Shown here piece by piece: positions 45,248 to 53,387 of a stretch of 64,000 bases of DNA (position 1 is its first letter; each line of letters begins with the position of its first letter). The stretch is taken from the NCBI RefSeq assembly GCF_015533855.1, contig NZ_AP024154.1, positions 65,001 to 129,000 of the forward strand. Reading direction: 5' to 3'. The notes under the pieces were generated by a model. It worked only from the letters and a program-made list of their open reading frames with translations. It searched no databases and was not told the DNA's origin. Both the position numbers and the translations under genes were made by a program. The stretch is from Echinicola sp. 20G (GTDB lineage: Bacteria > Bacteroidota > Bacteroidia > Cytophagales > Cyclobacteriaceae).

Positions 45248-46435
45248 TTATTTTTTGATAGCTGCTCTTCGTGCTATCTCATTTTTAATCAACTCAAACT
45301 CCCTACTGCTTTGACCAGCCACACTGGTATTTTCCGCAGCCCTTCTATACAAATAAGGCATCACAGACTCCACAGGCCCATAAGGCACGTATTTCGCTAC
45401 ATTATAGCCTGCAAAGGCCAAATTGTAAGAAATGTTATCACTCATCCCATAAAGTTGAGCAAAAAACACTCTCTTATCCTCTGGTTTCAAACCATGAAGG
45501 TTCATCAATTCAGTAAGGATAATATTACTCAGTTCGTTGTGCGAGCCACTGACCAGATAAATACGGTCTTTGTTCTCAATACTGAACTTCAGAGCTGCAT
45601 TATAATCTTTATCAGAATCCTCTTTTGTATCCTGAATAGGGCTTTGATAACCCATATCTTCCGCTCTATCTCTTTCCTTTTCCATATATGCTCCTCTCAC
45701 CAACTTGGCACCAACATGATAACCTTTGATTTCAGCTTCTTGATGGGCCGCCTTCAACAAACCTAGCATATCTTTTCGGTACATTTGATAGGTATTGTAA
45801 ACAATGGCTTTTTCCTTATTATACTTCTCCATTGCTTCATAAGCCAGATCGTCAATTACATCCTGGAACCAGCTTTCCTCTCCATCTATCATAATGCGCA
45901 CATCGTGCTCATAAGCCGATTTGCACAATGCATCCACACGATCTTTCAGCCTCTCAAAAGCCTCTTGTTCTTTGGCATTGAGCTTTTGACCAGCTTGTAC
46001 CTTTGTCATGATCTTGTAGCTTCCCAGACCTGTAACTTTAAATACAGTAAAAGGAATCTCCGTTGCTCCGGCTGATCTTTCAATGGTTCGAAGGATCTCA
46101 TCGCGGGTAAAATCATAACTTTTTTCTGTTCCCTTCCCCTCAACGGAATAATCCAATATGGTACCAATACCATACTGTTTTAATTCCCCAATGGACTTGG
46201 AGCAGTCTTCAATGCTCTCTCCTCCACAAAAGTGGCCGAACATGGTTTTCTTCATGATCCCTTTTATTGGCAATTTCAATTTAAAAGCTACATCAGCCAG
46301 ACCAGTGCCCAACTTTACAGCCAGATTACTATCCATCACCGCAAAAATGAGATACATTTTTTTCAACTCTACATCCGTCCTGGATGCAAAGGCAATCTCT
46401 GTATTCTCAAAAGAAATATTGGGTTTTGTATTCAT
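45248..46435 (-). CDS. proline dehydrogenase
   Basis: 395 residues. FAD-dependent oxidation of proline to pyrroline-5-carboxylate. The TIM-barrel motifs KLVRGAYMEKERDRAEDMGY, a block ending ISYNLAFAGYNVAKYVPYGP, and VMPYLYRRAAENTS are typical of the monofunctional PRODH family, which pairs with a separate P5C dehydrogenase. The N-terminal half (FCGGESIEDCSKSIGELKQYGIGTILDYSVEG) also fits. It lies just upstream of lysS in the same direction; co-transcription is possible given the 19-nt gap. Confidence 0.94.
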   Translation of the reverse strand: MNTKPNISFENTEIAFASRTDVELKKMYLIFAVMDSNLAVKLGTGLADVAFKLKLPIKGIMKKTMFGHFCGGESIEDCSKSIGELKQYGIGTILDYSVEGKGTEKSYDFTRDEILRTIERSAGATEIPFTVFKVTGLGSYKIMTKVQAGQKLNAKEQEAFERLKDRVDALCKSAYEHDVRIMIDGEESWFQDVIDDLAYEAMEKYNKEKAIVYNTYQMYRKDMLGLLKAAHQEAEIKGYHVGAKLVRGAYMEKERDRAEDMGYQSPIQDTKEDSDKDYNAALKFSIENKDRIYLVSGSHNELSNIILTELMNLHGLKPEDKRVFFAQLYGMSDNISYNLAFAGYNVAKYVPYGPVESVMPYLYRRAAENTSVAGQSSREFELIKNEIARRAAIKK

Positions 46436-46779
46436 CGTTTTGAATCAAGGTGCAAATATATAAAAAAACGTCTTCAGACGCTGTTTTTAATCCTTATTTA
46501 TATTGGACAAGAAGCCTGCCAAGCTCAATGATCGACAAGCCACCAACTCTCTAATTTCCACTGAGTAATCTCAGTCCGCGAATGTAATATTGAATCAGAG
46601 AATTTTATGCATATTTTTCCGAAAAAAAACGTACAAAATTTGTTTCTGCATTTTTGAAAAAAACACCTTTTCTCACCAAATAAAATACCGTAAATAAGCA
46701 CCACACTTTCTTATTATATCACTCTGAACAGAACCCAATTAAGAAATATTGAATTCACAAAAAAATAATTTAGTTTTTA
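46436..46779. other. AT-rich intergenic region between PRODH and the aromatic operon
   Basis: No supported gene. On the minus strand a TATATTTG at 46460-46453 is a fair -7 element for PRODH, and a short hairpin (46465-46487) sits upstream of it. On the plus strand the region is AT-rich and leads into the aromatic-operon promoter. Confidence 0.4.
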
Positions 46780-46810
46780 TTGTTTTTTAAATTTCCACCC
46801 CCTAATTTTG
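46780..46810 (+). promoter_or_regulatory. promoter of the aromatic amino acid operon
   Basis: TTG at 46780-46782, a 20-nt spacer and TAATTTTG at 46803-46810 match the Bacteroidota consensus TTG-N19/21-TAnnTTTG exactly. The expected start site, a few bases after the -7 element, falls at about 46814-46816, on or next to the leader ATG at 46816. Confidence 0.75.
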
Positions 46811-46815
46811 AAGCC

Positions 46816-46911
46816 ATGATTAAACAAGCAGCTACATATTTTATCTTTTTCTTTTTTTACTTTCGTCCTCAAGGCCGAATCGGAGCTGCTTATTGTCTGG
46901 ATAAAAAATAA
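46816..46911 (+). CDS. Phe/Tyr-rich attenuator leader peptide
   Basis: A 31-codon frame beginning MIKQAAT. Codons 8 to 16 read Tyr-Phe-Ile-Phe-Phe-Phe-Phe-Tyr-Phe: six Phe and two Tyr among nine residues. The remaining codons run through RPQGRIGAAYCLDKK to a TAA. It lies between a promoter and an intrinsic terminator, directly before an operon making Phe and Tyr. This is the same logic as E. coli pheL, although the sequence is unrelated. No Shine-Dalgarno sequence precedes it; translation may start on a leaderless RNA. The peptide itself probably has no function. Confidence 0.85.
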   Translation: MIKQAATYFIFFFFYFRPQGRIGAAYCLDKK

Positions 46912-46961
46912 AATTCATACATAAACTTAAAAAGCCCGATTCGAAAGAGTCGGGCTTTTTT
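46826..46961 (+). promoter_or_regulatory. ribosome-dependent transcription attenuator (protector, antiterminator, terminator)
   Basis: Three mutually competing helices can be drawn. Protector: AAGCAGCT (46826-46833) with AGCTGCTT (46884-46891), perfect 8 bp. Antiterminator: CGAATCGG (46876-46883) with CCGATTCG (46936-46943), 8 bp, extended by GCT (46885-46887) with AGC (46933-46935) across a bulged A. Terminator: AAGCCCGATTC (46932-46942) with GAGTCGGGCTT (46947-46957) around GAAA. Stalling at the Phe/Tyr codons (46837-46863) would cover the protector's 5' strand and free the antiterminator. Fast translation or none would allow the terminator. The leader stop lies about 20 nt past the antiterminator strand, so the shut-off would rely on ribosome timing. 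Confidence 0.78.
46929..46961 (+). terminator. attenuator terminator before aroG-type gene
   Basis: An 11-bp stem (one G-T pair) with a GAAA tetraloop, extended by A-T pairs and followed by a T-tract. It ends 19 nt before the DAHP synthase ATG. Confidence 0.88.
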
Positions 46962-46980
46962 ATTTCAATCAAACAACAAA

Positions 46981-48084
46981 ATGAAAGATCACTTAAAAAC
47001 GTCAGAATGGGGCTTGGGCCTAAAAGGCCACACTATCATCGCAGGACCTTGTAGTGCTGAGACTCCAGAGCAGGTAGAAAAAGTTTGCCTAGAAATGAAA
47101 AAGGAAAATATCATTCCTTCAATTTTCCGTGCTGGAATCTGGAAACCAAGAACTAGACCAGGAAGCTTCGAAGGCATTGGTGAAGACGGACTTAAATGGA
47201 TGGAGATTGTTAGACATCATCTAAATATCCCTATCACTACTGAAGTTGGTAACACTGCTCACGTTGAATTGGCCTTAAAACACAAAGTTGATGTGCTTTG
47301 GATCGGTGCCAGAACAACTGTCAACCCTTTTGCTGTTCAGGAAATTGCTGAAGCACTAAGAGGAACGGACATCCCTGTAATGGTCAAAAACCCAATGAAC
47401 CCTGACCTTCAATTGTGGATCGGAGCACTCGAAAGACTTCACGCTGTGGGAATCGACAAGCTTGCAGCCATTCACAGAGGTTTCAGTGATGCATATGATA
47501 AGCGATTCAGAAACAAACCTAACTGGTCCATGCCTATCCACCTTAAGAGAGAATGGAAAGGAATGGAAGTGATCAATGACCCAAGTCACATTGTAGGGAA
47601 AAGAGATGGTATCCTAGAAGTTTCTCAACGAGCCATCAACTTTGGCTTGGATGGCTTGATGATTGAAACCCACCATGATCCTGATAATGCATGGAGTGAT
47701 GCCAAGCAGCAAGTTACACCTGCTCAACTAAAAGATATTCTTTCTAAAATTGATTTCAAAAGCACTTTGGGTGCCGAAAAACCAAGCGAAAGACTTAGCG
47801 ACCTAAGAACAGCTGTTGACCATTTGGACGACCAGTTAATCGATCTTTTGGTTGAAAGATTCTCTGTTATTGACCAAATCGGTTCGCACAAGAGAGAGCA
47901 CAAATTGACGGTATTTCAGTCTGACAGATGGAAACAAGTGATGGACTCCAGAACTGACAAAGGTGTGGCGAAAGGACTAAGCGAAAAATTCATGAAAGAG
48001 TTGCTTTTCACTATTCATGAGGAGTCTGTAAAAAGACAAGAAAAACAGCTTAGATCAGGCGACACCGTAAAAAAAGATGCCTAA
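46981..48084 (+). CDS. bifunctional DAHP synthase / chorismate mutase
   Basis: 367 residues, first structural gene of the operon. The N-terminal domain (to about 260) is a type I-beta/KDO8P-like DAHP synthase (IIAGPCSAETPEQV, AGIWKPRTRPGSFEGIG, GARTTVNPFAVQEIA, KNPMNPDLQLWIGA, HRGFS, DPSHIVGKRDG, MIETHHDPDNAWSDAKQQVTP). The C-terminal domain (about 265-355) is an AroQ-type chorismate mutase (LSDLRTAVDHLDDQLIDLLVERFSVIDQIG). It thus joins the first shikimate step to the branch toward prephenate; such fusions usually allow allosteric inhibition of DAHP synthesis by prephenate or chorismate. Expression is predicted to be under the upstream attenuator. Confidence 0.95.
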   Translation: MKDHLKTSEWGLGLKGHTIIAGPCSAETPEQVEKVCLEMKKENIIPSIFRAGIWKPRTRPGSFEGIGEDGLKWMEIVRHHLNIPITTEVGNTAHVELALKHKVDVLWIGARTTVNPFAVQEIAEALRGTDIPVMVKNPMNPDLQLWIGALERLHAVGIDKLAAIHRGFSDAYDKRFRNKPNWSMPIHLKREWKGMEVINDPSHIVGKRDGILEVSQRAINFGLDGLMIETHHDPDNAWSDAKQQVTPAQLKDILSKIDFKSTLGAEKPSERLSDLRTAVDHLDDQLIDLLVERFSVIDQIGSHKREHKLTVFQSDRWKQVMDSRTDKGVAKGLSEKFMKELLFTIHEESVKRQEKQLRSGDTVKKDA

Positions 48085-48115: not shown

Positions 48116-49153
48116 TTGGAATCAATCATTTTCTCATCGCAAATAGCAACCGATTTGGAAAGGTATCTTAAAAGCAAGAGCTTTTCCAAATTAGGTCTTA
48201 TAGCAGATAGCAATACCTATCAAGCTTGTTATCCATTAGTTCAGGAAACACTTCCTCCCCACGAACATTTTCAGTTTGAAGCAGGAGAGATCAATAAAAA
48301 CCTGGACACCTGCAAGGACATTTGGCAATGGATGACAGATTGCGGATTTGACAGAAAATCACTGATCATCAATCTAGGAGGTGGAGTTACTGGAGATATG
48401 GGTGGATTTTGTGCCAGCACCTACAAGCGTGGCGTAAAATTCATCAATATCCCCACCTCTCTCCTTTCACAAGTAGATGCCAGTGTGGGCGGTAAGCTTG
48501 GCATTGATTTCAACGGGTTCAAAAACCACATTGGAGTATTCAATGAACCGGAAACTGTAATTATCTCTGATGCTTTTTTGAAGACTTTACCCCTGCCAGA
48601 ACTTAGATCTGGTTACGCGGAAGTCATTAAACATGGCCTGATCAAAAACGAGAATTACTTCAGAAGTCTAAAGCTACATCATTGGGAAACCCAAGTTTGG
48701 AAGGACATTATTGAAAAATCGGTTTACATCAAAAAAGATGTGGTCAGCAAAGACCCAAAAGAAGAAGGACTAAGAAAAATCCTCAACTTTGGCCACACTG
48801 TTGGTCATGCGGTGGAATCCTTTTATCTTGATACTGAGAGGCACCTCCTCCACGGGGAAGCAATTGCTATTGGAATGATTGCTGAAGCCTATTTATCCCA
48901 TCAGCATATCAGACTTCCCAAAGATGAACTTGATACCATCACCGAAACCCTTTTGGGAATATTTGGTAAAGTTGAAATCCCTACAGAAGACCTAGATGCC
49001 ATTGCTCAATTGTGCTTCCAAGACAAGAAAAATGATGGAAAAACCATCAATTGTTCTCTCTTGAAAAAAATCGGAGAGTGCGATTATAATATTGCCGTTA
49101 GCCTTGATGACATCATTGAATCCCTAAATTTTTACAACGCTCAACATCCATGA
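48116..49153 (+). CDS. aroB: 3-dehydroquinate synthase
   Basis: 345 residues, NAD- and metal-dependent closure of DAHP to dehydroquinate. Motifs: LGGGVTGDMGGFCASTYKRG (NAD-binding), PTSLLSQVDASVGGKLGID, SGYAEVIKHGLI, LNFGHTVGHAVES and LHGEAIAIGM with metal-ligand His and Glu residues. The start appears to be a TTG (48116); the next ATG in frame is far inside the domain. It follows the DAHP synthase by 31 nt and overlaps aroA by 4 nt (ATGA), so aroA is translationally coupled to it. Confidence 0.94.
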   Translation: MESIIFSSQIATDLERYLKSKSFSKLGLIADSNTYQACYPLVQETLPPHEHFQFEAGEINKNLDTCKDIWQWMTDCGFDRKSLIINLGGGVTGDMGGFCASTYKRGVKFINIPTSLLSQVDASVGGKLGIDFNGFKNHIGVFNEPETVIISDAFLKTLPLPELRSGYAEVIKHGLIKNENYFRSLKLHHWETQVWKDIIEKSVYIKKDVVSKDPKEEGLRKILNFGHTVGHAVESFYLDTERHLLHGEAIAIGMIAEAYLSHQHIRLPKDELDTITETLLGIFGKVEIPTEDLDAIAQLCFQDKKNDGKTINCSLLKKIGECDYNIAVSLDDIIESLNFYNAQHP

Positions 49154-50361
49154 ACAATATAACATTAGCACCTAAACCCAGTTTTGGTGAGGTCACTATC
49201 CCATTGCCTTCCTCAAAAAGCGAAAGTAACAGGGTATTGATCATTGATGCGCTTACAGAGGGAGAAAACGACATCTCCAATTTGGCAGAAGCAAGGGATA
49301 CCCAAACCATGATCAGACTTCTTCGAGAAGATCCAGAGATTCTGGATGTCTTGGACGCTGGTACCACCATGCGCTTTTTGACCGCTTATGCTGCTTTGTC
49401 AAACAGAAAAAAAACTCTAACAGGCACTCCTAGAATGTGTGAAAGGCCAATTGGCATTTTGGTGGACGCTCTCAGAAGTATTGGCGCTAAAATCAATTAC
49501 AAAGGAAAAGAGGGATACCCTCCAATGGAAACCCAAGGTTTTTCTGAGCAACTCACCGATCATGTCAAAATCCGTGGAGACGTAAGCAGTCAGTATATTT
49601 CTGCTTTATTGATGAACGCTCCCCTACTTCCCAAAGGGTTAACGTTGGAGCTAACCGGGAAAATTGGATCGAGAACTTATATTGAAATGACACTGGAGCT
49701 GATGAAACAGTTTGGCATCCAATATACTTTCCAAGATAATATCATTAATGTACCTCACCAGTCTTATAAAAACACAGCCTTTGCAGTGGAAAGTGATTGG
49801 TCAGGAGCCAGCTATTGGTTCAGCCTCTTGGCCTGTGCTGAAAAAGGTTCATTGTTCCTTAAAGGTCTCAAAAAAGACAGCCTTCAAGGAGACTCAAAAG
49901 TTGTAGACATCATGGATAAATTGGGAGTTCAAAGTGAATTCACCAATAAAGGAATACAGCTTACAAAAAAGCCGGTTACCGGTCTTCAGGAGTTTGACTT
50001 TACACATTGCCCAGACCTGGCCCAAACAGTTGCGGTGACCTGTGCTCTCATTGGTCAAAAAAGTAAATTCACAGGACTGGAAAGCCTAAGAATCAAAGAG
50101 ACGGACAGGATTTATGCCCTTCAGCAAGAGCTGGCCAAATTCAATGCCCAATTGGTGGAAGAAGAAAACGAAGTGTTTACGCTTATTCCATCCACAGGTA
50201 TTCCTGAAACAGTAACCATTCACACTTATGATGACCACAGGATGGCCATGGCATTTATGCCTTTAGCCACCAAAACGAAAGTCATCATTGAAGACAAAGA
50301 AGTAGTCAACAAATCCTATCCGAGCTTTTGGAAACATTGCGAACTGGTGGGCATTTTGTAA
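49150..50361 (+). CDS. aroA: 5-enolpyruvylshikimate-3-phosphate synthase
   Basis: 403 residues, penultimate step to chorismate. Conserved pieces: PSSKSESNRVLIIDAL (PEP/S3P site Lys), LDAGTTMRFLTAYAAL, the DVSSQYISALLMNAPLL block, DWSGASYWFSLLA, RIKETDRI and TYDDHRMAMAF. The N-terminal loop and the shorter overall length differ from E. coli AroA in the manner of Bacteroidota enzymes. A terminator follows immediately, ending this transcriptional block. Confidence 0.94.
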   Translation: MNNITLAPKPSFGEVTIPLPSSKSESNRVLIIDALTEGENDISNLAEARDTQTMIRLLREDPEILDVLDAGTTMRFLTAYAALSNRKKTLTGTPRMCERPIGILVDALRSIGAKINYKGKEGYPPMETQGFSEQLTDHVKIRGDVSSQYISALLMNAPLLPKGLTLELTGKIGSRTYIEMTLELMKQFGIQYTFQDNIINVPHQSYKNTAFAVESDWSGASYWFSLLACAEKGSLFLKGLKKDSLQGDSKVVDIMDKLGVQSEFTNKGIQLTKKPVTGLQEFDFTHCPDLAQTVAVTCALIGQKSKFTGLESLRIKETDRIYALQQELAKFNAQLVEEENEVFTLIPSTGIPETVTIHTYDDHRMAMAFMPLATKTKVIIEDKEVVNKSYPSFWKHCELVGIL

Positions 50362-50367
50362 ATACTT

Positions 50368-50402
50368 AAAAGCTGTCTATCAAATGTGGACAGCTTTTAT
50401 TT
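50368..50402 (+). terminator. intrinsic terminator between aroA and pheA
   Basis: AAAAGCTGTC and GACAGCTTTT pair perfectly (10 bp) around an 11-nt loop, followed by TTTTATTTT. It separates the attenuated block from pheA-tyrA; the latter then needs a promoter in 50403-50512 or depends on read-through. Confidence 0.8.
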
Positions 50403-50512
50403 TCTCTACAGGAACCATTTTAGTGAAAAGTCAATCAATTGATATTGATATTTTGCATGGACTGATCTAATTTCACTGGACAATTCTAACACTTGACCTA
50501 ACCTCCACAAAA

Positions 50513-51346
50513 TTGAAATCTCCACAACAACGAGTAGCCATTCAAGGCATCAAAGGCTCCTACCACTATCAAGTAGCTCTAAATAAATTTGGTTCTGAAA
50601 TCAATGTCGTAGAATGCCTGAGCTTTTCCGAATTGGTGCGAAAAATCATCAATGAGGAAGCTGATATTGGGGTATTGGCCTTGGAAAACTCCATTGCTGG
50701 AGCCATCCTCCCCAATTATGATTTGATGGACAGAAACAACCTCAGCATCATTGGGGAATTTTATCTTCCCATCGCCCACCAACTGATGGCATTGAAGGGT
50801 CAAAGCATTGAAGACATCAAAGAAGTACGCTCCCACCCAATGGCTTTATTGCAATGCAAAGCTTTCTTTGAACATTATCCCCACATCAAATTGATTGAGG
50901 ATCTTGACACTGCTGCGGTAGCCAAAACCATTAGTGATAAAAAACTAAAAGGCGTCGGCGCAATAGCCGGAAAATCAGCTGCTGAATTCTACCAATTGGA
51001 CATTCTGGCTTCTGACATACAGACGATCAAAAATAACTTTACGAGGTTTTGTATTGTCCAAAAGGAAAACAAGGCTCGTGAAAAAGACTCTTTCGACAAA
51101 GCCTCAATCAAATTGATCATTAAAAATGAACCTGGAAGCCTAGCCAAAGTATTGACCACAATGAGTGAGCACAACCTTGACCTCTCCAAAATCCAGTCAC
51201 TTCCTGTTATAGATGAGCCTTGGAATTATGCTTTTTTCATTGACATGATATTCAACAATGTCAACGACTATCATGAAACAATCGAGATCCTCACCAATAG
51301 AGGCCATAAAATCAAAGTTTTGGGAGAGTATAAAAACACTAAATAA
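50513..51346 (+). CDS. pheA: prephenate dehydratase with ACT domain
   Basis: 277 residues, converts prephenate to phenylpyruvate. The catalytic domain (1 to about 185) contains GIKGSYHYQVALNKFG, VLALENSIAGAI and the NNFTRFCIV block with Thr177-Arg178-Phe179. The C-terminal ACT domain (about 197-277) normally binds Phe for feedback inhibition; it keeps GSLAKVL at 208-214 but reads KIQSLP (226-231) where the sensing motif is ESRP. The start is a TTG (50513). No chorismate mutase domain is fused; that activity sits on the DAHP synthase. Confidence 0.93.
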   Translation: MKSPQQRVAIQGIKGSYHYQVALNKFGSEINVVECLSFSELVRKIINEEADIGVLALENSIAGAILPNYDLMDRNNLSIIGEFYLPIAHQLMALKGQSIEDIKEVRSHPMALLQCKAFFEHYPHIKLIEDLDTAAVAKTISDKKLKGVGAIAGKSAAEFYQLDILASDIQTIKNNFTRFCIVQKENKAREKDSFDKASIKLIIKNEPGSLAKVLTTMSEHNLDLSKIQSLPVIDEPWNYAFFIDMIFNNVNDYHETIEILTNRGHKIKVLGEYKNTK

Positions 51347-51352
51347 CCTACT

Positions 51353-52513
51353 ATGATCAAGCCTGCTGAAAGACTAAACCAAGTTAAAGAATATTATTTT
51401 TCTAAAAAGCTCCGGGAAGTTGCCAAACTAAAGGCAGAAGGTCACCCAATTATCAATATGGGAATTGGCAGCCCAGACTTGCCCCCCCACCCAAGTGTAA
51501 TTGAGGCATTAAATAGCACTAGCCAAATGGAAACTTCCCATGGCTATCAAAGCTACCAAGGCAGCCCTGCACTCCGGGAGTCCATTGCTGCTTTTTATCA
51601 AAAATATTATAACACCTCTTTATCTCCTGTGGATGAAATACTTCCCATGATGGGATCCAAGGAAGCCATCATGCATATTTCTATGGCTTACTTAAACCCG
51701 GGTGATAAGGTCTTGATCCCAAATCCTGGTTATCCGACATATTCTTCTGTCACTGAATTAGTAGGCGCTAGAGCTATTTATTACGATTTAAAGGGTGAGA
51801 GTCGTTGGCTCCCTGACTTTGATCAGTTAAATAAACTGGCAGAGGAAGGAATCAAACTGATGTGGGTCAACTACCCCCATATGCCCACTGGGGCGACGGC
51901 TGATATTGAAACCTTAATGAAACTAGTAGATTTTGCTAAAGACAACCAAATCCTATTGGTCAATGACAACCCTTACAGCTTTATCCTCACAGAAAAACCA
52001 ATTAGCATCCTTTCCATAGAAGGAGCTAGAGAGATTGCTTTGGAGCTTAATTCCCTGAGCAAAACTTTCAATATGCCCGGTTGGCGCGTAGGAATGCTCT
52101 GCGGCCAAGCCAATTACCTTAAGGAAGTGTTAAAAGTAAAAAGCAACATGGACTCAGGCATGTTTTTGGGCATTCAAGCAGGAGCTATTGCCGCCCTAAA
52201 TTTGGAAAGTAGCTGGTTTGACCAAATGGACAGTATTTATCAAAAACGCAGAGAACTTGTCTGGAAATTAGCTGAAAGAGTAGGTGCTATTTGCGAAAAA
52301 GAAAGTGCAGGCATGTTTGTTTGGGCCAAATTAGCTGATAAAACCGACCCAATGGCCTTGGTGGACAAACTGCTTTATGAAAACCATATCTTCATTACTC
52401 CAGGTGATATTTTTGGGAGTAATGGCCATGGTTACATTAGATTTTCCTTGTGTGTGCCTGAGGACACCATACAGGAGGCTTTGGATCGAATAAATGCATC
52501 TTGGAACAAATAG
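51353..52513 (+). CDS. class I/II PLP aminotransferase (aromatic/aspartate type)
   Basis: 386 residues, fold type I. INMGIGSPDLPPHPSV at the N-terminus, NPGYPTYSSV, a YPHMPTGATADIETL loop, VNDNPYSFIL and the PLP-lysine segment LNSLSKTFNMPGWRVGM. Its place between pheA and tyrA (6-nt and 19-nt gaps) supports a role in transaminating phenylpyruvate and hydroxyphenylpyruvate. LL-DAP-aminotransferase-like activity is an alternative, since sequences of this group are close. A specific symbol is not justified. Confidence 0.88.
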   Translation: MIKPAERLNQVKEYYFSKKLREVAKLKAEGHPIINMGIGSPDLPPHPSVIEALNSTSQMETSHGYQSYQGSPALRESIAAFYQKYYNTSLSPVDEILPMMGSKEAIMHISMAYLNPGDKVLIPNPGYPTYSSVTELVGARAIYYDLKGESRWLPDFDQLNKLAEEGIKLMWVNYPHMPTGATADIETLMKLVDFAKDNQILLVNDNPYSFILTEKPISILSIEGAREIALELNSLSKTFNMPGWRVGMLCGQANYLKEVLKVKSNMDSGMFLGIQAGAIAALNLESSWFDQMDSIYQKRRELVWKLAERVGAICEKESAGMFVWAKLADKTDPMALVDKLLYENHIFITPGDIFGSNGHGYIRFSLCVPEDTIQEALDRINASWNK

Positions 52514-52532
52514 CCTGTAAAACCAAAACAAT

Positions 52533-53387
52533 ATGGAGCTAAGAAAAATACACATTATTGGATTAGGACTTTTAGGTGGCTCATTTGCTTTAGGGATTAA
52601 AAAAGCCTTTCCATCCGTTAAAATCAGCGGAACAGACAGAAACCCTACACACCTGGATGAAGCGATTTCCTTGGGAATTATTGATAAAAAATCTGACAAT
52701 CCCCCGCAGGACACGGACATAATCATCATCGCAACACCGGTACATACCATCAGTGCTCTCCTTCAAAAAACCCTGGATGAAATCCAACCTGAGACTTTAG
52801 TCATGGATTTTGGCTCAACCAAAGAGGAAATTTGCAAAGCGATTAGCCAACACCCCAAAAGACAAAACTACTTGGCTGCTCATCCAATTGCTGGAACGGA
52901 ATACTCTGGACCTGCAGCCGCTCTTCCGGACTTGCTTCTCAACAAGATCATGATTTTGTGTGAGCTTGAAAAAACTGACCTTAACCTGAAAGCCAAAGCC
53001 TACGAAGCTTTTGAAGCGCTTAACATGAAAATCAGGTTTATGGAACCTCACGACCATGACAATCAACTGGCCTTTGTTTCACATCTTTCCCACATCAGCT
53101 CTTTTATGCTGGGCAAAACAGTTTTGGACAAGATGGAAAATGACAAAAACATTTTCAATATGGCTGGAAGTGGCTTCGCGTCCACTGTTCGATTGGCAAA
53201 AAGCTCCCCCGATATGTGGACACCGATCATGCAGGAGAACAAAACAAATATTCTAGAAGCCCTAAACGGCTACATAAAAAACCTGATCGATTTCCGTGAT
53301 AATTTAGTCAATGATGAATACGAAGAGCTTTTCGATAAAATGAAAAACACCAATCAAATTGGAAACATACTGGATTTGAAAAAATAA
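52533..53387 (+). CDS. tyrA: prephenate dehydrogenase
   Basis: 284 residues, NAD(P)-dependent oxidative decarboxylation of prephenate to hydroxyphenylpyruvate. The Rossmann motif IIGLGLLGGSFALGIKKAF is at the N-terminus, followed by the DFGSTKEEICKAI and AAHPIAGTEYSGPAAA active-site segments and FVSHLSHISSFML. No ACT domain is present, so direct Tyr feedback is not evident. It is the last gene of the second aromatic block and is convergent with the next gene without a clear terminator. Confidence 0.94.
   Translation: MELRKIHIIGLGLLGGSFALGIKKAFPSVKISGTDRNPTHLDEAISLGIIDKKSDNPPQDTDIIIIATPVHTISALLQKTLDEIQPETLVMDFGSTKEEICKAISQHPKRQNYLAAHPIAGTEYSGPAAALPDLLLNKIMILCELEKTDLNLKAKAYEAFEALNMKIRFMEPHDHDNQLAFVSHLSHISSFMLGKTVLDKMENDKNIFNMAGSGFASTVRLAKSSPDMWTPIMQENKTNILEALNGYIKNLIDFRDNLVNDEYEELFDKMKNTNQIGNILDLKK

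Follow-up and report, generated by a model that had tools for sequence, protein, structure and literature searches.

A predicted leaderless phenylalanine/tyrosine attenuator, widely conserved among Cyclobacteriaceae, in front of an aromatic amino acid operon

The pheL and trpL attenuators of E. coli combine a leader peptide in which the regulated amino acid abounds with a logic of protector, antiterminator and terminator helices. Comparative surveys, possibly including Bacteroidetes, are reportedly those of Vitreschak 2004 and Lopatovskaya 2010, and leaderless polycysteine uORFs of mycobacteria are said to be the subject of Canestrari 2020. Within the phylum, passages of a 2021 paper on Flavobacterium psychrophilum (PMC9723704) present clues of leader-peptide attenuation upstream of amino acid operons, together with a structured 5' element that precedes pheA and is also conserved in other Flavobacteriaceae; a section of PMC7366714 mentions sORFs in long 5' UTRs that are reminiscent of leader peptides. 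An earlier note on the DNA analyzed here had supposed that a Bacteroidota version of such control may be undescribed; at the level of the phylum the idea was already in the 2021 paper, and the novelty lies in the leaderless element, as a search of the open-access literature (most subscription papers being outside it) returned neither a description of this element nor one of any leaderless Bacteroidota attenuator. The element is very likely a ribosome-mediated transcription attenuator with a leaderless start, sensing charged tRNA-Phe/tRNA-Tyr and controlling a DAHP synthase-aroB-aroA-pheA-aminotransferase-tyrA operon.

The window, i.e. the whole analyzed stretch of 64,000 nt (positions 65,001 to 129,000 of NZ_AP024154.1), lies inside the genome of Echinicola sp. 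20G, a single contig of 5.79 Mb whose nearest named relatives are Echinicola; the DAHP synthase-chorismate mutase (DAHPS-CM) of E. arenosa is 99% identical to that of the window. A gap of 545 nt, bounded by a minus-strand proline dehydrogenase-like gene (45248-46435) and by plus-strand genes from 46981 onward, contains a 31-codon ORF, an intrinsic terminator and two more strand-sharing helices. The first gene of the operon encodes DAHPS-CM (46981..48084, plus strand), both domains of which were matched, under the NCBIfam curated cut-offs. The rest of the operon (48116..53387, plus strand) comprises aroB (48116), aroA (49150), prephenate dehydratase (50513), an aminotransferase (51353) and prephenate dehydrogenase (52533). 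The curated cut-offs were passed by aroB, aroA and prephenate dehydrogenase, while prephenate dehydratase was just under its own (207.2 vs 219 bits) and the aminotransferase was also below. Together the six genes represent part of the common aromatic pathway and the branches leading to Phe and to Tyr, and their spacing and shared strand suggest a single transcript.

As in leader-peptide attenuators, a short ORF with a run of end-product codons precedes the operon. This leader ORF (46816..46911, plus strand; 31 codons, translation MIKQAATYFIFFFFYFRPQGRIGAAYCLDKK) contains at codons 8-16 (46837..46863) the stretch Tyr Phe Ile Phe Phe Phe Phe Tyr Phe, hence six Phe and two Tyr codons with a single Ile, as the earlier note had read it. 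Between the leader and the first gene lies an intrinsic terminator hairpin (46929..46960, plus strand) with a stem of 46929-46942 and 46947-46960, a GAAA loop (46943-46946) and U's after it; a part of it, 46933-46943, doubles as the 3' strand of an antiterminator. The antiterminator 5' strand, composed of CGAATCGG, a bulged A and GCT (46876..46887, plus strand), starts 12 nt past the last aromatic codon. Its core 46876-46883 pairs with 46936-46943, and past the bulged A at 46884 the GCU of 46885-46887 pairs with 46933-46935. A third helix, the protector, is formed by a 5' strand AAGCAGCT (46826..46833, plus strand) and a 3' strand AGCTGCTT (46884..46891, plus strand), both supported by strand-swap tests and folding energy. 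The energies calculated in the window are -12.9 kcal/mol for the protector, -17.9 kcal/mol for the extended antiterminator and -21.6 kcal/mol for the terminator hairpin, and the 191-nt region folds better than 200/200 of its dinucleotide shuffles (z -4.15). A generic scan made no terminator call here on the plus strand; the promoter consensus that it uses is sigma-70, which does not cover Bacteroidota promoters.

The coordinates proposed earlier for the terminator, antiterminator and protector proved correct in the window. Both of the alternative helices are present, but the 8-bp segments listed for them adjoin without overlap, and the two can compete because the 3-bp extension of the antiterminator past the bulged A creates an overlap. 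Since these two 8-bp segments are non-overlapping, a protector-antiterminator pseudoknot is topologically possible.

For the comparative analysis we assembled three sets of loci. The close group consists of 88 loci (8 + 80) of Cyclobacteriaceae (e.g. Echinicola, Algoriphagus, Belliella, Cyclobacterium), in each of which DAHPS-CM shows at least 80% identity; its tally was made without L002, L005, L009, L010 and L012-L015 (duplicate genomes of named loci) and without the more distant L017-L030. The alignment A1 comprises 85 loci, with L046 and L078 removed as duplicates. The element (leader, CGAATCGG strand, terminator) is complete in 87/88 close-group loci, and the contig of the sole locus without the element (L102) has just 195 nt upstream. 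A model, R1, was derived from close-group sequences and contains a single helix, the terminator; selection by it therefore favours similar sequence and not the helices under test. R1 matched in 100/196 genomes of the family with an E of 1e-3 or better, of which 53 reach 1e-26 with one place each (many of these 53 also supplied R1); the source genome has a single copy, and in the weak tail many matches cover the terminator end alone. Twenty of the 24 R1 places with E between 2.1e-12 and 2.5e-6 constitute the second tier. The third, class-wide set derives from prephenate dehydratase genes, found in 43/148 class genomes. No relative of the element was found among phage records.

Some local rearrangements were observed along the way. 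Certain family members have two DAHPS-CM genes (G011, G031, G036 as L012-L014, and G030), which in G011, G031 and G036 are same-strand neighbours separated by the attenuator. In Algoriphagus yeomjeoni (L086, ~1905-2000) about 90 nt extra separate the terminator from the gene, a stretch that shares letters with the pre-gene stretch of A. faecimaris (L102 1-195) and looks like a small inserted repeat.

The promoter directly before the leader AUG is new here and was absent from the earlier account. A -7 box TAATTTTG (46803..46810, plus strand) agrees with the consensus TAnnTTTG at 6/6 positions and ends 5 nt ahead of the leader ATG; a 20-nt spacer separates it from a -33 element ATTG (46779..46782, plus strand; consensus TTTG), both consensuses being as given in passages of PMC6847099 and PMC7366714. 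The box precedes the leader ATG in 87/87 close relatives, at a gap of 4 nt in 76 and 5 nt in 11, with 6/6 positions in 71 and 5/6 in 16, and 86/87 have a TTG-type -33 element 19-21 nt upstream of it. An automatic test detected the box in 84/87 close, 15/20 second-tier and 1/30 class-wide loci vs 79/2740 shuffles, its three misses in the close group (L066, L068, L100) being due to the script's use of a second ATG two codons in. Among crude ORF starts in the window, a box of at least 5/6 positions occurs at the same place in 1/61 and a 6/6 box in 0/61. Mapped start sites of Flavobacterium johnsoniae fall 4-5 nt past the box, with its G at -5, according to the part of PMC6847099 consulted; combined with the position of the box, this spacing predicts a transcription start at, or one nt from, the A of the leader AUG. 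For B. thetaiotaomicron the element is described, in an excerpt of PMC7366714, as centred at -7, which by arithmetic gives a 5' UTR of 1-3 nt, so that the leader would still be leaderless or nearly so. Judged by promoter position, the transcript should therefore begin at the leader AUG, which would make this a leaderless attenuator.

It appears unlikely that the same attenuator starts further upstream and has an ordinary short 5' UTR, with the -7 box serving as another element or a secondary promoter. Such a start would agree with the minority status of leaderless mRNAs among those of Bacteroidota (5.5% in F. psychrophilum and ~3.7% with 5' UTRs <10 nt in B. thetaiotaomicron, as stated in portions of PMC9723704 and PMC7366714, respectively), and for most class-wide leaders the best box match does lie further upstream. 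It is at odds, however, with a box whose position is fixed throughout the close group and in 15/20 second-tier loci while the letters flanking it vary, and whose distance from the AUG equals the start-site spacing mapped in F. johnsoniae.

With regard to the helices, the earlier note had proposed to look in relatives for covariation and for conservation of the aromatic run. The helices turned out to be kept or covarying, with the antiterminator covarying in the wider sets only. Across 83 distinct close-group sequences, pairing of the terminator amounts to 98.1% and 4 pairs show two-sided changes, neither value being reached by any of 500 shuffles; further pair types occur in unexceptional number (reached by 180/500 shuffles). 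The antiterminator is 99.8% paired and near-invariant; within the close group the pair count revealed no covariation for it, and swapping partners left the energy equal, at -18.18 kcal/mol both ways. As the register of the protector shifts by 3 nt between genera, a column-wise covariation count is unsuitable for this helix, and it was assessed by partner swaps. Its pairing score (65 unique sequences) was 14.78, a value attained by 0/200 partner swaps (13.86, sd 0.21); shuffled strands scored 10.58. Its folding energy (75 unique sequences) was -12.24 vs -11.45 kcal/mol (sd 0.18), with 0/200 as low. The protector is poor or absent in at least six close relatives (L038, L058, L061, L066, L068, L083). 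The spacing from the ATG to CGAATCGG is 60 nt in 85/87 loci, the other two having 59 (L006) and 57 (L081).

In the second tier an aromatic leader was found in 20/20 loci (one of them starting with GTG), and the helices have letters different from those of the close group. The next gene encodes DAHPS-CM (55-66% identity) in 15/20, an aminotransferase in L210 and L216, and prephenate dehydratase in L214; that of L209 and L215 is not among these assignments. Partner swaps in these 20 loci gave -10.32 vs -7.10 kcal/mol (sd 0.52) for the protector and -13.77 vs -10.58 kcal/mol (sd 0.53) for the antiterminator, 0/200 swaps being as low in either case. A protector that competes with the antiterminator, a hallmark of leader-peptide attenuators, is present here and covaries in both the close group and the second tier.

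Class-wide, an upstream ORF with at least six F/Y in 10 residues precedes 28/42 prephenate dehydratase genes (the window's own excluded), compared with 0.8% of 2100 shuffles, 0/42 on the reverse strand and 0/17 hisG upstreams (17 of 23 hisG loci). This at-least-6-in-10 test found no F/Y-rich leader at 14/42 class-wide pheA genes; in two of these 14 (L113, L114), both from family members, an apparent aroA precedes the gene, as in the window. A leader and a terminator were jointly detected by a simple scan in 22/42 class-wide loci, in 17/22 of which the antiterminator beats at least 95% of shuffles. In partner swaps of 30 class-wide loci the antiterminator scored -15.36 vs -10.55 kcal/mol (sd 0.46; 0/200 as low), and the protector was marginal at -7.85 vs -6.90 (sd 0.41), the best swap reaching -7.93. 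At one of these loci (L166) the swap script picked a different leader than the earlier scan, and similar errors are possible among class-wide loci.

The sensing codons are conserved as well. Eight of the nine codons 8-16 are aromatic in 82/85 aligned close-group leaders, seven in 2 and five in 1, in line with the conservation that the earlier note had proposed to test. Across these leaders TTT alternates with TTC and TAT with TAC, and Phe interchanges with Tyr; such synonymous changes and exchanges indicate selection on the amino acid. In a Nitritalea halalkaliphila locus (L106, 1831-2000) two indels turn part of the run into Leu codons, codons 13-16 being non-aromatic, and the leader ORF extends beyond the terminator; the protector (AGGGA/TCCCT) and the terminator show changes on both strands.

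A very improbable reading sees in the leader a small hydrophobic protein with a function of its own, or an arrest peptide of the TnaC kind sensing a free amino acid, to which the helices would be secondary. What speaks for it is the C-terminus RIGAAYCL, which recurs as such or in near variants in most close relatives; yet these letters overlie the antiterminator and protector strands. Moreover, a 1-nt deletion after the aromatic run of L006 scrambles the end of the peptide and leaves the helices intact, and at several close-group loci the leader stops a few codons earlier with the pairing retained, which indicates that it is the RNA rather than the end of the peptide that is conserved. Beyond the close group, the order of the peptide and its C-terminus differ while the pairing covaries. 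Scarcely credible is control by a metabolite riboswitch, a T-box or a protein-dependent terminator next to a fortuitous ORF, as the good fold and the terminator/antiterminator pair (of a type that such systems use too) are countered by an aromatic reading frame conserved far above chance and by Rfam, with no match at gathering score in the region, T-boxes included, and no T-box among the 41 sub-threshold matches to E 5, which lie mostly over the terminator. One of the Rfam candidates, the Bacteroides sRNA BTnc231 (RF04180) over 46843-46960, was rejected as a chance similarity at 27 bits vs a gathering score of 80.4. Of 149 class genomes 10 matched BTnc231 at E 1e-3, and one of them, G120, was over the cut-off; its match (C1:260591) lies away from the pheA of that genome (C1:508928) and lacks a leader ORF of comparable type. 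At gathering score it was found at 0/16 pheA loci.

The geometry of the preferred attenuator can be judged from the distance between the end of the run and the first paired base of the antiterminator, which is 10-13 nt in 98/137 loci (76/87 close, 10/20 second-tier and 12/30 class-wide) and 8-14 nt in 118/137, with a range of 3-23. A ribosome covers ~12 nt downstream of its codon (PMC4833913), hence one stalled in the run would leave the antiterminator strand free, the fit being most exact in the close group. As in known attenuators, the antiterminator uses the 5' arm of the terminator, and its exposure on stalling would follow from this spacing. The stop codon precedes the terminator by a median of 16, 23 and 31 nt (close, second-tier and class-wide loci, respectively), a distance at which the terminator can still form while a ribosome sits on the stop codon, with L106 as the one exception.

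The features described above are compatible with the following scenario. RNA polymerase would start at, or ~1 nt from, the A of the leader AUG, and a ribosome would load on the bare 5' end of the leaderless message. With Phe or Tyr in short supply, the ribosome would stall in codons 8-16 and, if early in the run, cover the protector 5' strand; the antiterminator strand, 12 nt past the run, would then be free to pair with the 5' arm of the terminator, and the polymerase would enter the operon. With Phe and Tyr plentiful, the ribosome would cross the antiterminator strand and reach the stop codon, 17 nt ahead of the terminator, which would then form and end transcription. In equilibrium folding, the antiterminator dominates (0.994) before the 3' arm of the terminator is made, even with the protector strand free, and the terminator dominates once this arm is made. 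Because the antiterminator outcompetes the protector at equilibrium, control must be kinetic, and in this model the effect of the protector without a ribosome may be small.

Leader ORFs were also seen upstream of other amino acid genes in Echinicola. Before an anthranilate synthase component I-type gene (L218; G000:C1, match 2897265), a leader ORF MKQNHTQYWWWHTELLDREEQLAIA with three Trp codons is followed by a terminator-like hairpin, and a YWWW leader occupies the same place in 11/11 Echinicola genomes. An Ile/Val/Leu-rich leader ORF MSRIVSVINLVIILIFNCK, then a terminator-like hairpin, precedes an ilvD-type gene (L232; G000:C1, match 2286248); similar ORFs are present at 11 loci in 11/11 Echinicola genomes and absent from the 5 second ilvD-type copies inspected. 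Upstream of hisG, an ORF ends in TVHHFHHSS (L151; G000:C1, match 2834566), and His-rich ORFs (HHFHH or HHLHH) occur at hisG in 11/11 Echinicola genomes; no clear U-tailed terminator was seen by eye at the hisG leader, so its mode of control may differ. A 41-codon ORF with a Thr/Ile-rich end (e.g. TIITTTIFTTTITG in L267) lies before the aspartokinase-homoserine dehydrogenase gene (G000:C1 ~2222744) in 6/6 Echinicola genomes (L266-L271). We take this ORF to be reminiscent of thrL; in L266, inspection by eye gave no clear U-tailed terminator.

Overall, anatomy and evolution argue for a real, widely conserved Phe/Tyr attenuator, whose regulatory response would be the one outlined above. We consider it probable that the Phe/Tyr attenuator of Cyclobacteriaceae became leaderless, class-wide pheA leaders keeping ordinary 5' UTRs, and that leader-peptide attenuation is general for Phe/Tyr, Trp, Ile/Val/Leu, His and Thr operons. 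To our knowledge, Bacteroidota mRNAs are without Shine-Dalgarno sites, and the leaderless and leadered versions offer a natural experiment on the loading and timing of the first ribosome without such a site. The element would imply tight transcription-translation coupling in Bacteroidota; for this phylum, in which the searched literature only hints at codon-based attenuation, it lends support to such control, and it supplies an element model missing from Rfam.

Among the described systems, a leaderless precedent is trpL-trpE(G) of Sinorhizobium meliloti, whose attenuator RNA begins with the leader ATG according to a passage of PMC7298713; this is a Trp attenuator of an Alphaproteobacterium, and the likeness is drawn from its description rather than from a sequence comparison. 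The leaderless uORFs with polycysteine of mycobacteria are likewise short ORFs proposed or shown to be amino-acid responsive (part of PMC4633059), but they differ in amino acid (cysteine) and phylum. The pheA element of F. psychrophilum comes from the same phylum and another family and is likened by its description in sections of PMC9723704; by analogy, it may be the same type of element as the leadered pheA leaders seen class-wide. Phe/Tyr uORFs before shikimate-metabolism genes figure likewise in the Fig. 6b legend of PMC6429828, and aroF of C. glutamicum, in a different phylum, has a leader peptide too, as described in an excerpt of PMC3890552. The leader-peptide logic is shared with E. coli trpL and with pheL/pheA (RF01859 Phe_leader), the latter serving the same pathway, although the element is not a member of RF01859 (23.6 bits vs a gathering score of 55). 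Unlike pheL, it has Phe and Tyr codons mixed, a leader ORF that traverses the antiterminator strand, a predicted leaderless start, and six genes downstream with DAHP synthase-chorismate mutase first. On sequence grounds, it looks like pheL and trpL in every structural feature testable here.
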